From a virus: 26,988 nucleotides of DNA. The DNA is taken from IMG/VR virus record IMGVR_UViG_3300009158_000171, positions 1-26,988 of that record. One strand, given 5' to 3'. The translations under genes and the position numbers were made by a program. This document shows positions 3,709 to 26,988 of the stretch, in pieces (within the stretch, counting starts at the first letter, position 1; the number at the start of each line of letters is the position of its first letter). The notes beneath the pieces were generated by a model. The model made no database searches, was not told the origin of the DNA, and saw only the letters and a list, made by a program, of their open reading frames with translations.

Positions 3709-5028
3709 TTACTTGAATCTACCAACAAGGGTTCTTAAATCCTCGAACATCTTTTTATCTTTCATGTATGAGTTTGCTTCCTCTTGGGTTACGAAATTTC
3801 CTTGAAGAGAAAACCCTCTAAGCTTACCGGATTTAACTAAATCCCAGGTTGATTCGTTAGTTACCCTCATCTTAACTGCCCAGGATCCTACTGGAGCATC
3901 GAGCTTATAAATGCTGTTTGCTTTATCTGTCTTAGAATCTTCCACGATCCAGCTTTCATAGATATAAGATCCTGCATCTAATCCATCATTATGCATAACA
4001 TTATTGTCGGCAAGTCTATTTTCTCTCATGAACTTCTCTGCACAGCGCTGAATAACATCTTTGGAGAATCGAACATAGTAGATTTCTTTAGTGTCATCAT
4101 CAATCCTTGGGATTTCCATATCAGGAATTGCTACTAATCCAACTATCTCGTGTTTGCTTTCGTCAGCAAATGCAAATTTATTAAAAGCATATCCATTATG
4201 AGGCATGTCTTCGGGTTTTACACCAGGGGTATTTGGAGCTGGACCTTTATCCTGAAATGTCCCTGTAGGTGTTATGTAATATTTTTGCCATCTGTGTTTG
4301 CAGTTTGGGCCTCCTTTATATTTCCATATTGAATAATTGTCTGCTCCACCTAATCCAAATCCAGGGTTCGGATTATTCGCTGATAGCTGTTGTATCTCGT
4401 CGAACGTATAAAATTTATTAAGGCTAACCATGTGCTGACAAAAATCTCTAGAATCTGTTGTGGTATCACCCTCGTATTTGTATGCACTATAACCAGCAAA
4501 TTCAAAATGATCGTTTTCATCAACCATATTAAATTCAAAACCAGATTCAAATTCGTCCTGCCCAATTCCAAGATTTTTAGCTCTCTCGAGAATTAAATCA
4601 TAATTGATACCATTAAACTTCATACCAACTGATCCTAATTTAGATATAACGTCTCCGTTATTATCTATATGTGTCTTGATACCCAGATTTTTTACCTTTT
4701 GTACCTTATTTTCATTAGAACCGGTTGCAAAGATTTTTGATTCTGGGATTCCTAGTTCTTTTGCACGATCAAGCATATCTTGTCCTATACTATCCCTTGC
4801 TGAAATGATGTATAACGTATCGCCAGCAGCTTTATACTTCTCTGCTAATAGTAAACCATCCTTCGTTGATAAGGTACCGTCAAAATCAAAAGAGATCTTT
4901 GAGAATTCTTGTTTCTTGAAGAATACCCAATCATGTTCGATTGCAGGTTCGTCAACTAAAGCAATTGCATCAATGCCACTACCAACCATATCATCAATGA
5001 TTGCTAAGTCTATTATTTTCTTTTCCAT
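3709..5028 (-). CDS. XkdF-type prohead protease with a nested HAD-like domain
   Basis: The product has 439 residues. Residues 1-40 carry the opening of XkdF-type head proteins (GIDAIALVDEPAIEHDW). A HAD-like domain follows at about 42-140: DFDGTL at 48-53 with both aspartates, ISAR at 75-78, a lysine near 108 and HIDNNGD at 120-126. Residues about 190-265 hold FCQHMV and YSIWKYKGGPNCKHRW, a segment seen in Mu gpF/capsid morphogenesis-type proteins. From about 280 the XkdF protease body resumes (VGLVAIPDMEIPRID, YYVRFSKDVIQRCAEKFM, MHNDG, GSWAVKMRV, LRGFSLQG). It would cleave scaffold and capsid during head maturation. Its place upstream of scaffold and capsid supports this. The HAD insertion is intact in its main residues, so it could be an active phosphatase or nucleotidase, or be structural only. 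Confidence 0.75.
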   Translation of the reverse strand: MEKKIIDLAIIDDMVGSGIDAIALVDEPAIEHDWVFFKKQEFSKISFDFDGTLSTKDGLLLAEKYKAAGDTLYIISARDSIGQDMLDRAKELGIPESKIFATGSNENKVQKVKNLGIKTHIDNNGDVISKLGSVGMKFNGINYDLILERAKNLGIGQDEFESGFEFNMVDENDHFEFAGYSAYKYEGDTTTDSRDFCQHMVSLNKFYTFDEIQQLSANNPNPGFGLGGADNYSIWKYKGGPNCKHRWQKYYITPTGTFQDKGPAPNTPGVKPEDMPHNGYAFNKFAFADESKHEIVGLVAIPDMEIPRIDDDTKEIYYVRFSKDVIQRCAEKFMRENRLADNNVMHNDGLDAGSYIYESWIVEDSKTDKANSIYKLDAPVGSWAVKMRVTNESTWDLVKSGKLRGFSLQGNFVTQEEANSYMKDKKMFEDLRTLVGRFK

Positions 5029-9501: not shown

Positions 9502-10941
9502 TTATAAGAATTGTGCATTTATTGGTTGACCTGCTGTAAATTCAAGAGTATAATTGAACATTTTTTGTCTATTATACTTTTGTGTAGCATAGGTGGTTGT
9601 TGTGATGTTTACTAATTGCGGAATACTACTTCCTGGTGCATAAGCTAAGACGTGGGTAGACATGAAAAGACCCCTTAAATATTCTGAATCTTGCTCAGTT
9701 ACCCAGTCAGTTTCTGCAGTATATTTTGTTTCTATAGTATTTCTAGCAGGTACATTACCAAATCTATTAGGTGCAATATTACCTGCAGTATAAGTAGATG
9801 CCCAGGCAGGCTCAGTTCTACTGTAATTAATTTTAGTTGAGGTATCGTTTTGTGTATTGACCTTTGTAAAATTATACCAGTCTCTTCCACCTAATGAATT
9901 TAACCACGAAAATCTCCAGTGCTCATTAGTCCAACAGTCTTCTTCTACGAATTGTATTGTTATTTCTTCTGATATTGCAAATCCTAATGTTTGAGTTCCT
10001 AGATTTCCTATATTATAAAGTTGAATAGTATAGTGTGTACAAGTAGGATCGATAACTGCTATATTTTTTTCGATATCTGCAGGTCCGATAGCTAACTGGC
10101 CTATCATATATGCTGGACCTAAACCAGATCCCAATGTTGCACCTGCATTTGCTCTTGGTCCTCCACCGTCTACTAGTGTATTATACATTTCAATAACTTC
10201 ATAAGGACTAGTACCATAAGATGGCTTGTAAAAATTAAGTTTAGCAGCATACACATATCTGTCTTCCCCCGCTTCATCAGTATAATTCCAGAAACTAAGA
10301 CTTGCAAAATCCCCTCTAATCAATTCCATTGTCCTTTTCTCAGAATCCCCAGTGGTGTTTGGTAATTTAGTTAAAAATAAGCCCAAATGATTCGGTGACG
10401 AACTCCAAGACATTGAATAGGGATAATCAGTTAATATAGGATTTACTTCAAATAGATAATTATCCATCGAACTTTTATAACCTGCTGTAAATCTAACTCT
10501 AGTTGTATCTGTTATTCCTGTAATAAGTCTACCATCAACTCTAGGGTATAAGAAATAACTAGGATCCCCAACAGCATCAGAAACCCCATTATAGATAAGA
10601 AGCGTATCCGTTGGGCCAGATAATCTGTACTGCTCTCCAACGAGGCAATGTACCTGACCACCTAAAGTTGTTCCGATACCCCAGTCATCACTATAGGTTG
10701 GATCTTCTACAAGTCCTTTAGAAATATCTAGATATCCTGCACAGAATGGGCCTACATCTATAATTCCATTACCTGTTGGATTTGGTCTCTGCAATATTCT
10801 TGTGAAAAATACACCATTAATATAGACATCAAAAACATATTTGAAGTCATAACTTGCTATCTTATCCGATGTAATGTCCCATACTATATTGGAAAATGAC
10901 GGTGACCATACAAATGGCGAATGGTTAACTGATGTTATCAT
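9502..10941 (-). CDS. Tail structural protein of the Bacteroidota phage type
   Basis: The product has 479 residues. The N-terminus (SPSFSNIVWDITSDK, YVFDVYINGVFFTRILQRPNPTGNG) matches a pattern common in Bacteroidota phages: a fibronectin-like strand set, then a Pro-Asn-Pro-Thr-Gly turn and an Ile-Asp-Val-Gly segment. Beyond residue about 300 there are Trp- and Tyr-rich beta segments (FVEEDCWTNEHWRFSWLNSLGGRDWYNF) that resemble receptor or hub-binding domains. Its ATG (10941-10939) overlaps the TGA of the -1 frame of the tail chaperone in an ATGA, so translation is probably coupled to the frameshifted product. It acts in the tail by inference from its neighbours; no catalytic motif is visible. 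Confidence 0.55.
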   Translation of the reverse strand: MITSVNHSPFVWSPSFSNIVWDITSDKIASYDFKYVFDVYINGVFFTRILQRPNPTGNGIIDVGPFCAGYLDISKGLVEDPTYSDDWGIGTTLGGQVHCLVGEQYRLSGPTDTLLIYNGVSDAVGDPSYFLYPRVDGRLITGITDTTRVRFTAGYKSSMDNYLFEVNPILTDYPYSMSWSSSPNHLGLFLTKLPNTTGDSEKRTMELIRGDFASLSFWNYTDEAGEDRYVYAAKLNFYKPSYGTSPYEVIEMYNTLVDGGGPRANAGATLGSGLGPAYMIGQLAIGPADIEKNIAVIDPTCTHYTIQLYNIGNLGTQTLGFAISEEITIQFVEEDCWTNEHWRFSWLNSLGGRDWYNFTKVNTQNDTSTKINYSRTEPAWASTYTAGNIAPNRFGNVPARNTIETKYTAETDWVTEQDSEYLRGLFMSTHVLAYAPGSSIPQLVNITTTTYATQKYNRQKMFNYTLEFTAGQPINAQFL

Positions 10942-11225
10942 TTATTTCTTATCTTATTTAATTGTTTCTGATGCTCTTCCCTATCTTTTTTGAACTTATC
11001 TTTTCTTCTTGCAAGAAAGTTAAAAGCTGTTTTGATTCCAATTTCAGTTGCTCTATCATATTCAAGAGGGTTTCCCCCTGCAATTGCGTCAATGATGTTG
11101 TTCCATCCCCTAGCAATTTCAATAACCGGATTTGTATTTCTAGTAATTTTACTTCCTCCAGGGATTCGTTTGTCTTCGATATCTCCACCCTCGCTTTCAA
11201 AGAGTCCAGAGTAAGACTTATAAGT
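10938..11225 (-). CDS. Tail assembly chaperone C-terminal extension, reached by -1 frameshift (gpT-like)
   Basis: Under the 3' end of the 266-residue chaperone, the -1 frame is open for 95 codons between a TAA at 11228-11226 and a TGA at 10940-10938. It has no ATG, GTG or TTG, so ribosomes can hardly start in it. The translation is protein-like (GNPLEYDRATEIGIKTAFNF, FLARRKDKFKKD) and its TGA overlaps the ATG of the next gene as ATGA. In lambda, gpG and the frameshifted gpGT coat the tape measure before tail assembly; the same arrangement is inferred here. The slip site is not certain. A AAA TT at 11150-11147, just after a GGAGG at 11159-11155, is the best candidate; T TTG AAA at 11201-11195 is another. 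An alternative is initiation at the ATT 11147-11145 using that GGAGG. Confidence 0.75.
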   Translation of the reverse strand, partial: TYKSYSGLFESEGGDIEDKRIPGGSKITRNTNPVIEIARGWNNIIDAIAGGNPLEYDRATEIGIKTAFNFLARRKDKFKKDREEHQKQLNKIRNK

Positions 11226-24662: not shown

Positions 24663-26988
24663 TTATGTCCATTGACCTATTGATACTGTTGTTGTTGCAC
24701 CAATTCTATTACATATAAAGTAACTACCTGCAGTAGTAACTGCCGTTCCCACAGAAGTTGTTTGTGCTACTGAGGGTATTAATGTTCCTGCTACAGTAAC
24801 TTCAAAACTACCTTTAACAAACACCGTAGTAACTGTAGCTGTTGATGCTGTTGCAATATTTGTTACCGTTTGTGTAGATACTATTTGTGAAATCATTGAA
24901 GGAGCTGTTAAAGTATTATTAGCTGCGTCAATTGCTTGTGTAAGATATAAAATACCAGCAAGAGTAGCTCCTCCAGCACCTCCAAGCGAGAATTTAATAT
25001 TACCCGATGTTGCCGAGGTTACAGAGATTTGAAATATTGTTTCAAATACGTAAGATCCTATTTCTAGAGTTATTGTTCCTCCAGGAGATCCATCAAATAG
25101 AGCTTGTTGAGCAGTACCTGTAGCAAAAGCAGCTCTATTATTATGCTGTCTTATTAAGTGATTATTTTGTACTAACCCTCTATTACCTGCATCTGATGTA
25201 GCATAGAATCCATTAGTATCCATTTCCCAACCTCCGACAATTGGTGTAGTATTAAGAGTACCTGGTGTAAATATAATAGGTGTTAAAGTTGTTGTTGGGG
25301 CAGCAAGCGTTAAACTCTTACTTAATATATTATTTATATCATCCTTCATGTAAGGATTAGCGTCCCAAGTTCCTGTGGATGTAGCAGTAGATGTACATAT
25401 TACTAGTATATCATTGCCTGTTTTTGCAACTCTTAGAGTAGCACCACCGTTTGTTTTTATAGTAACATCAAGAGTACTATCATTATCAATAAGCCAACCC
25501 TGACCTAATGTTAATGTTGTTGCGTCGGGTAATATACAATCCTGTGTACTTGTTCCCGTAAAGAATTGGTGTCTTTTACTTGAAACTGTTAAAGTTGTTG
25601 TTCCAGTTGCTGTTAAAACAAAAACACTATCACCTACAACGTTATTACCAGTTAAGTTACCATTAATATCTGTTGCTGTTCCACTTGATCCTGCAGTTCC
25701 ACTTGACCCTGCAGATCCAGAAGATCCTGTTAATCCTGAAGAACCTGCAGTTCCTGTTAATCCTGAAGAACCTGATGAACCATTAGCACCTGAAGATCCA
25801 GCGGTTCCGTTTATTCCATTAGCACCTGAAGAACCTGATGTTCCATTAAGGGAAAGTCCTGATGAACCAGCGGTTCCATTACCTGAAGTACCTGAAGAAC
25901 CTGAAGAACCTGCAGTTCCCTTATTTCCAGTTGATACTAACCATAGATCTGAACTTTGACGTAATAATACAATTAATGAATACTGCCCATTAGTTATTAG
26001 TGCTTGCCCCTCAACGGTCACACCTGAACCACCAACTATCGTAACCACCCCTGTTCCTGCTTGTTCAACAACTATTTGTTCACCACCTACCCAAGTAACT
26101 GATGATTGAGGCGGTATAGTTAAATTATGAGCAGCAGCTGAGCTCATTTTTACCCCAGTATACGCATCACCTAAAACTAATGTATAATCTGTATTTGTTT
26201 GTGTGTTCCAATTTAACGCGCTATCACCTGAGGATCCAGCAGATCCTGAAGATCCAGCAGTTCCATTTATTCCATTAGCACCTGAAGATCCAGCAGTTCC
26301 TGCAGATCCTGAAGATCCAGCAGTTCCATTAGAACCAGTTGCACCTGAAGATCCAGCAGTTCCATTTATTCCATTAGCACCCGAGGATCCAGCAGTTCCA
26401 TTTATTCCATTAGCACCCGAGGATCCAGCAGTTCCATTTCCCGAAGATCCAGAAGATCCAGTAGTTCCATTAGCACCAGTTGCACCAGAAGATCCAGCAG
26501 TTCCATTTATTCCATTAGCACCAGCAGATCCACTTGTTCCTGTAGATCCCGAAGATCCAGCAGATCCAGCAGATCCAGCAGATCCAGCAGATCCAGAAGA
26601 TCCTGATGAACCACTTGTTCCTGCAGACCCTGAGGACCCAGCAGTTCCATTAGCACCAGCTGCCCCTGAAGATCCAGCAGTTCCGTTACCAGAAGATCCT
26701 GCAGTTCCATTTATTCCATTAGCTCCTGAAGATCCAGCAGTTCCTGCAGATCCTGAAGATCCAGCAGTTCCATTAGCACCAGTTGCACCTGAAGATCCAG
26801 CAGTTCCATTTATTCCATTAGCACCTGAAGATCCAGCAGTTCCATTTATTCCATTAGCACCCGAGGATCCAGCAGTCCCACTAACACCAGTTGCACCAGA
26901 GGATCCACTTGTTCCTGCAGACCCTGAAGATCCAGCAGTTCCTGATGAACCACTTGTTCCTGCAGACCCTGAGGACCCGGCAGTTCCA
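24663..26988 (-). CDS. Collagen-like tail fibre, C-terminal part (enters from the right edge)
   Basis: The frame ending at 24663 stays open without interruption to 26987 (775 codons); the Met at 26147 is internal. Layout from the edge: about 255 residues of Gly-X-Y triplets (GTAGSSGANGINGTAGSSG...), a non-repetitive domain (DSALNWNTQTNTDYTLVLGD, IPPQSSVTWVGGEQIVVEQ), a second triplet block of about 75 residues, and a C-terminal region of about 350 residues with TVSSKRHQFFTGTSTQDCIL (a carbohydrate-binding-like strand region), a beta-sandwich (GSYVFETIFQISVTSATSGN) and the final VGTAVTTAGSYFICNRIGAT. Collagen-like rods make long flexible trimers; the last domains probably bind the host. The antisense and shifted frames in the repeats are artefacts. 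It is probably the same gene as the piece at 1-384. Confidence 0.85.
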   Translation of the reverse strand, partial: GTAGSSGSAGTSGSSGTAGSSGSAGTSGSSGATGVSGTAGSSGANGINGTAGSSGANGINGTAGSSGATGANGTAGSSGSAGTAGSSGANGINGTAGSSGNGTAGSSGAAGANGTAGSSGSAGTSGSSGSSGSAGSAGSAGSAGSSGSTGTSGSAGANGINGTAGSSGATGANGTTGSSGSSGNGTAGSSGANGINGTAGSSGANGINGTAGSSGATGSNGTAGSSGSAGTAGSSGANGINGTAGSSGSAGSSGDSALNWNTQTNTDYTLVLGDAYTGVKMSSAAAHNLTIPPQSSVTWVGGEQIVVEQAGTGVVTIVGGSGVTVEGQALITNGQYSLIVLLRQSSDLWLVSTGNKGTAGSSGSSGTSGNGTAGSSGLSLNGTSGSSGANGINGTAGSSGANGSSGSSGLTGTAGSSGLTGSSGSAGSSGTAGSSGTATDINGNLTGNNVVGDSVFVLTATGTTTLTVSSKRHQFFTGTSTQDCILPDATTLTLGQGWLIDNDSTLDVTIKTNGGATLRVAKTGNDILVICTSTATSTGTWDANPYMKDDINNILSKSLTLAAPTTTLTPIIFTPGTLNTTPIVGGWEMDTNGFYATSDAGNRGLVQNNHLIRQHNNRAAFATGTAQQALFDGSPGGTITLEIGSYVFETIFQISVTSATSGNIKFSLGGAGGATLAGILYLTQAIDAANNTLTAPSMISQIVSTQTVTNIATASTATVTTVFVKGSFEVTVAGTLIPSVAQTTSVGTAVTTAGSYFICNRIGATTTVSIGQWT
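25690..25915. repeat. Collagen-type triplet repeat block, second block of the fibre gene
   Basis: The 9-bp pattern of Gly-Ser-Ser and Gly-Thr-Ala codons recurs many times with synonymous changes. It separates two globular domains of the fibre. Copy number is likely to vary by recombination. Confidence 0.8.
26220..26988. repeat. Long collagen-type triplet repeat block at the right edge
   Basis: Triplet repeats continue to the edge. Higher-order units recur, for example a 36-bp unit (GTAGSSGANGIN) present many times, several copies identical over 30 or more bases. Such stretches collapse in short-read assemblies, which explains why the sequence stops here and restarts at base 1 with the same kind of repeats. 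Confidence 0.85.

Follow-up and report, generated by a model that had tools for sequence, protein, structure and literature searches.

How is a second reading frame expressed when it lies beneath the end of a putative tail assembly chaperone gene, shifted by -1, and has no start codon of its own? The locus that raises this question is carried by a viral DNA of 26,988 nucleotides, hereafter the window, by which we mean the whole stretch analysed. A sequence-only reading of the window had proposed a programmed -1 frameshift of the lambda G/GT type, and the elements that it described are indeed present: for 268 bases neither of the two frames contains a stop, frame 0 running to 10958 and the -1 frame from 11225 to 10938; the 95 codons of the -1 frame include no ATG, GTG or TTG; and its TGA (10940-10938) forms ATGA with the start codon of the next gene. 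That reading had not noted a run of ten Ts, which lies just upstream of the TAA that opens its interval. The features of the locus are as follows.

11758-10958, minus strand: frame-0 gene for a putative G-like tail assembly chaperone of 266 aa (matches to phrog_32199 and P12024S gp38)
Residues 170-266 of frame 0, minus strand: the part that starts at the T run and overlaps the T region
11250-11241, minus strand: T10 run, read in frame 0 as CTT TTT TTT TTA (LFFL), the candidate slip site
11228-11226, minus strand: TAA that closes the -1 frame five codons past the T10 run (FFFSYIK, then stop)
11225-10938, minus strand: -1 frame with the T-like domain, 95 codons plus TGA (open frame, conservation in relatives, helical model)
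11225-10958, minus strand: double-coded segment of 268 bases with both frames open
11159-11155, minus strand: GGAGG within Pro-Gly-Gly codons of the -1 frame; a role as a signal is not supported
10941-9502, minus strand: next gene, a virion-module protein of 479 aa, whose ATG (10941-10939) overlaps the TGA of the -1 frame (10940-10938)

The window is 65% A+T, and the T10 run is the sole run of at least seven Ts on the minus strand of these 27 kb. The gene order, the chaperone and then the 479-aa gene, is the same in three relatives (L005, L007 and L010).

Direct searches with the window proteins found no viral relatives, whereas searches with TerL and with frame-0 profiles gathered about 150 viral loci. 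A genome scan yielded five further loci in MAGs: two Winogradskyella, one Flavobacteriaceae, one Bacteroidetes and one labelled Pseudooceanicola. Because the search patterns targeted TerL or the G domain, which precedes the run, nearly all loci were found independently of the run and were not picked for it. With the window included, 135 viral loci have a frame-0 match, and 103 of these are non-duplicates that reach the run; a non-duplicate here differs in the 250 bases around the run, many loci are close kin, and the 103 should not be counted as independent events. Outside the 103, two loci end before the run, and frame 0 of L075 is broken by an upstream indel. In this last locus (548-1030) frame 0 ends just before the T9 run, the indel being apparent against the closely similar L036-L039, and either an error or a mutation may be responsible. 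The MAG labelled Pseudooceanicola carries its family member at 4001-4612 (L159); the label is alphaproteobacterial, whereas the family is otherwise associated with Bacteroidota, and this is probably a binning error. A seemingly missing TerL start codon, which looked odd at first, was discarded as a candidate peculiarity, since the loci that were checked do have a GTG, TTG or ATG.

In all loci of sufficient length and without a break, the window excepted, the -1 frame past the run can be read without a stop into one and the same T domain. The -1 protein of the window aligns with some 55 relatives, reaching E about 1e-12 against L005 and L007. The T-like domain follows the pattern FxFRxxIxxxYxxLF, then a variable linker, WGWY, LAxxD and a helical end, and its structure prediction is a helical model (pLDDT 74). 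No relative examined had a shuffled or stopped -1 frame, and in none does an ATG open the conserved -1 coding, which is continuous with the run. That the open frame is an effect of chance or composition, yielding no product, is scarcely credible. The frame is start-less, long open frames can arise by chance, and permuting the window's own synonymous codons keeps frame 0 open in 8.5% of trials, but the protein is conserved among relatives and both frames show a strong coding pattern. On this comparative evidence the -1 frame is genuinely coding and conserved among relatives. The arrangement by which the lambda type is recognised, a G-like domain in the upstream frame and a conserved T domain without its own start in the second, is found here. 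Thus the proposed -1 shift from a G-like protein to a conserved T-like domain holds up; the position given for the slip does not, and the T10 run upstream of the interval takes its place.

The switch of frames falls at the T9/T10 run in every intact relative when the loci are aligned. The run occupies the same protein position (xFFx) in 103 of the 103 non-duplicate loci that reach it, with nine Ts in 100 and ten in three (the window, L034 and L106), and neither T7 nor T8 occurs at this position in any of the 103. The five MAG loci share the layout of the viral ones, four having T9 and one T10. The codon phase in which the run starts is free to vary (phase 1 in 59 loci, phase 2 in 34 and phase 0 in 10), and at least eight changes of phase are required on the tree. 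Phe is written TTC in 29% of cases elsewhere in the same gene and never inside the run. Relatives keep both the net -1 relation and the slip-prone junction sequence; the TAA closes the -1 frame past the run in the window. These alignments demonstrate that the run, both frames and the relation between them are conserved.

We consider it likely that the G-like protein and the -1-frame T-like domain are joined by a slip at the T9/T10 run, most likely by RNA polymerase adding one U. In the proposed scheme, the G-like protein would be read in frame 0 to 10958 and the T-like domain in the -1 frame to 10938; throughout the family the two would be joined by a net -1 change of frame at the run, just past the conserved G domain. 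Only some transcripts would receive the extra U from RNA polymerase, which would allow G to be made from frame 0 and G-T as the fusion. Bacterial RNA polymerase slips at runs of at least seven Ts, preferring T over A (PMC6260861), and a 9T run conserved across homologues is a published criterion for purposeful transcriptional slippage (PMC1088944). Here the run length of nine Ts is conserved across homologues and is indifferent to codon phase. Folding upstream and downstream of the run gave no signal against shuffled sequence (mean z 0.06 and 0.03, respectively; 101 loci; pseudoknots not in the model), as expected for a bare homopolymer. A downstream stem-loop that could stimulate a shift in the manner of dnaX was likewise not found in these 101 loci (mean folding z 0.03), nor was a conserved upstream stimulator resembling a Shine-Dalgarno sequence at the shift site; the GGAGG sits downstream of the run and is missing from most members of the window's clade. 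A run length kept whatever the codon phase, together with the lack of an RNA structure signal, favours slippage of RNA polymerase over a ribosomal heptamer.

The ribosomal route would be a -1 frameshift in which two tRNAs slip jointly at a stretch inside the run, T TTT TTT (or T TTT TTA/TTG), as happens on other viral slippery heptamers. An in-frame T TTT TTT is available in every phase of T9, and -1 ribosomal shifts are used by lambda G/GT and many phages (PMC5009743). The earlier statement that the locus has no classic heptamer proved mistaken, since two in-frame heptamers, T TTT TTT and T TTT TTA, lie within the T10 run. However, such a heptamer requires just seven Ts counted from the third base of a codon, whereas T9/T10 is kept in three phases, including bases outside the heptamer. 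Seven or eight Ts would satisfy T TTT TTT in two of the phases, but no run shorter than nine exists among the 103 loci, and a downstream structure signal is lacking. A ribosomal shift is accordingly a possibility that we treat as rather doubtful, and the slip is probably due to stuttering of RNA polymerase. We infer from these patterns that the fusion is made, that it would serve in tail assembly much as lambda gpG/gpGT does, and that the slip would be transcriptional.

The slip had been placed instead at A AAA TT (11150-11147), aided by the GGAGG just before it, with a GGAGG-driven ATT start near 11147 as the alternative. The spacing between GGAGG and ATT is plausible for a Shine-Dalgarno sequence, and a site downstream of the TAA would avoid the stop. 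Against both forms of this proposal, the -1 peptide upstream of the GGAGG is conserved (mean z 4.1), which speaks against a slip there, and a start near 11147 cannot account for the conserved residues between the TAA and the GGAGG. Nor does the GGAGG stand out as a signal: the coding strand has 42 copies, mostly in Gly codons, most relatives lack it, and gene starts in the window are without Shine-Dalgarno sequences. In addition, A AAA TTA offers no re-pairing in the A site. We therefore regard a local shift or start at this place as highly improbable.

The TAA at 11228-11226 is the feature that sets the window apart; among the 103 non-duplicate loci it occurs in the window alone and is absent from every relative. 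TAA is the ordinary stop in this genome, being used by 23 of the 25 genes checked. A slip by one in either direction at the T10 run meets a stop within about 7 codons, and with the TAA standing between the run and the T domain, the window as assembled cannot yield the fusion by simple slippage. The 21 residues between the TAA and the GGAGG resemble the -1 frame of the relatives (z 8.1 with L010; mean z 4.1), so the -1 reading must start further upstream. Through most of the history of the lineage, the -1 frame would thus have been translated from upstream of the TAA. A 20-mer taken from just past the TAA matched no near strain. The TAA may be a consensus or sequence error, may mark a defective genome, or may be a real recent change with a bypass; given how well the T domain beyond it is conserved, we take it as a sequence error or a recently damaged copy.

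If the TAA is instead real and the lineage has changed, a slip at T10 in either direction would only truncate G, giving a short form beside the long one, and the T domain would be being lost or made separately, for example from a non-standard start. In agreement with this, each shifted frame of the assembled sequence meets a stop within about 7 codons past the run, two forms made by slippage into stops are known for Thermus dnaX (PMC5009743), and the window sits on a long branch of the tree. However, the T domain and the peptide right after the TAA are conserved as well as they are in relatives, the frame is without a canonical start, and no other locus is alike. We judge a real, established stop unlikely.

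The earlier reading had remarked on an unusually long double-coded segment, and this turns out to be genuine. In the window's clade (for example L005, L010, L012, L015, L032, L076-L078, L080, L082, L085, L086, L090, L094 and L099), frame 0 spans the T region for 85-100 codons and does not stop before roughly the last 50 nt of the T frame. When the -1 protein was held fixed and its synonymous codons were resampled, frame 0 of the window stayed open this far in about 0.1% of trials, and the same resampling at each clade locus's own codon usage left it open in 0.03-1.2%. Permuting the codons within the segment left frame 0 open in 1.5-66% of trials across the clade. Openness of frame 0 is by itself suggestive evidence of double coding; the divergence is decisive. 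At third positions of the -1 frame the divergence is 0.274 in the double-coded stretches, compared with 0.500 for the third positions that precede the run (six clade pairs, p = 3e-18). For loci outside the clade, -1 third positions gave 0.134 in double-coded T stretches and 0.272 in single-coded T stretches from the same genes (16 pairs, p = 1e-9). The lower -1 third-position divergence indicates that both frames of the double-coded segment are under selection, as judged from substitution patterns. Since frame 0 continues across the whole T region, G and G-T of the window's clade would be about equal in length and would differ in their C-terminal ends.

What the gene product does is suggested by several lines of evidence. 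The frame-0 protein matches phrog_32199 (E 1.4e-13) and gp38 of Nonlabens phage P12024S. Matches to Phage_TAC_7 are weak and under the Pfam cut-off, with E 0.003-0.004 in 3 of 56 proteins (E 0.004 for frame 0 of the window). Foldseek matched a viral protein annotated as a tail assembly chaperone (E 2e-3); the viral proteins matched in this way are annotated but have no solved structures. Against the PDB, sequence and fold searches with the G model gave no significant match, and a fold search with the T model gave low-Z matches only; the structure models were built from alignments without one row from the phage record collection. The chaperone gene follows a Neck1/HK97-gp10-like gene and is separated by two genes (479 and 721 aa) from a 759-aa tape-measure candidate, whose own match is weak (phrog_3336, E 0.029). 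The downstream genes in relatives matched no tape measure family. A role in tail assembly as a chaperone is the likeliest reading, given the G/T layout, the place after the Neck1/HK97-gp10-like gene, the weak Phage_TAC_7 matches and the fold match.

Few cases of recoding are better known than tail chaperone frameshifting, which is regarded as ribosomal; Xu, Hendrix and Duda reportedly described in 2004 that the frameshift is conserved. The locus resembles lambda gpG/gpGT in having an overlapping frame pair in the virion-assembly block, a -1 relation, a start-less second frame and a conserved C-terminal domain in the -1 frame. It differs in that the family has no detectable sequence relation to solved chaperones, in that the slip site is a phase-independent T9/T10 run, and in that frame 0 of the window's clade crosses the entire T region, whereas the lambda G/T overlap is short. 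Lambda gpG/gpGT and the conserved frameshift of tail assembly chaperones are summarised in PMC5009743. Shigella mxiE and spa13 and the bacterial IS transposases, which slip on 9T/9A (PMC1088944, PMC5009743), share with the family a 9T conserved in homologues and conserved coding in the new frame past the run; the present case differs in being a gene of a phage structural module known from DNA sequence. Thermus thermophilus dnaX, where slippage on 9A leads into stops in both other frames (PMC5009743, PMC1088944), is like the window's T10 as assembled, where either shifted frame ends within about 7 codons, but here the -1 frame is open and conserved in every intact relative.

Among isolated phages, gp38-gp39 of the Nonlabens (Persicivirga) phages P12024S and P12024L have a homologous G gene, T9 and a T region in the -1 frame, but they are annotated as two separate hypothetical genes and overlap by just 86 nt from the run. 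In P12024S (L002, 5336-5587) the annotation gives the T half a hypothetical gene of its own with an ATG start, gp39; the frame is open from the T9 run and this is likely a misannotation. In Flavobacterium phage 6H (L160, KC959568), a structural relative of the G protein at 10352-10927 on the minus strand ends with CFFYSTR and a stop after TGTTTTTTC (T6). Its -1 frame hits a TAG two codons later, followed by a 105-codon open frame (10044-10361, minus strand), much like the window; the homopolymer length in this record may be doubtful.

On balance, we think it somewhat probable that a Bacteroidota phage family makes the G/G-T pair via slippage of RNA polymerase at an exactly conserved T9 (rarely T10), not by ribosomal frameshifting, and that one clade has fully overlaid C-terminal domains, with 85-100 codons encoding two conserved ends. 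The literature searched, in which few subscription journals were covered, yielded no account of phage tail chaperones using T9 slippage, which is weak evidence of novelty. If true, a layout tied to a fixed homopolymer length in any codon phase would move control from the ribosome to RNA polymerase. The fully overlaid C-termini would be an instance of double coding, in a virion-assembly gene of a phage, that is unusually long and open to measurement. Annotation can split genes of this kind into two unrelated hypothetical proteins or overlook the T half.

Two features elsewhere in the window may be mentioned. A long array of tandem repeats of 9, 18 and 36 bases occupies 25674-26907 and may belong to a collagen-like or repeat protein encoded on the minus strand. 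Within positions 1-130, CTTCAGGAGGAATGGGG occurs on the minus strand at about 12 and again at about 117, so the end of the contig falls in or near a repeat.
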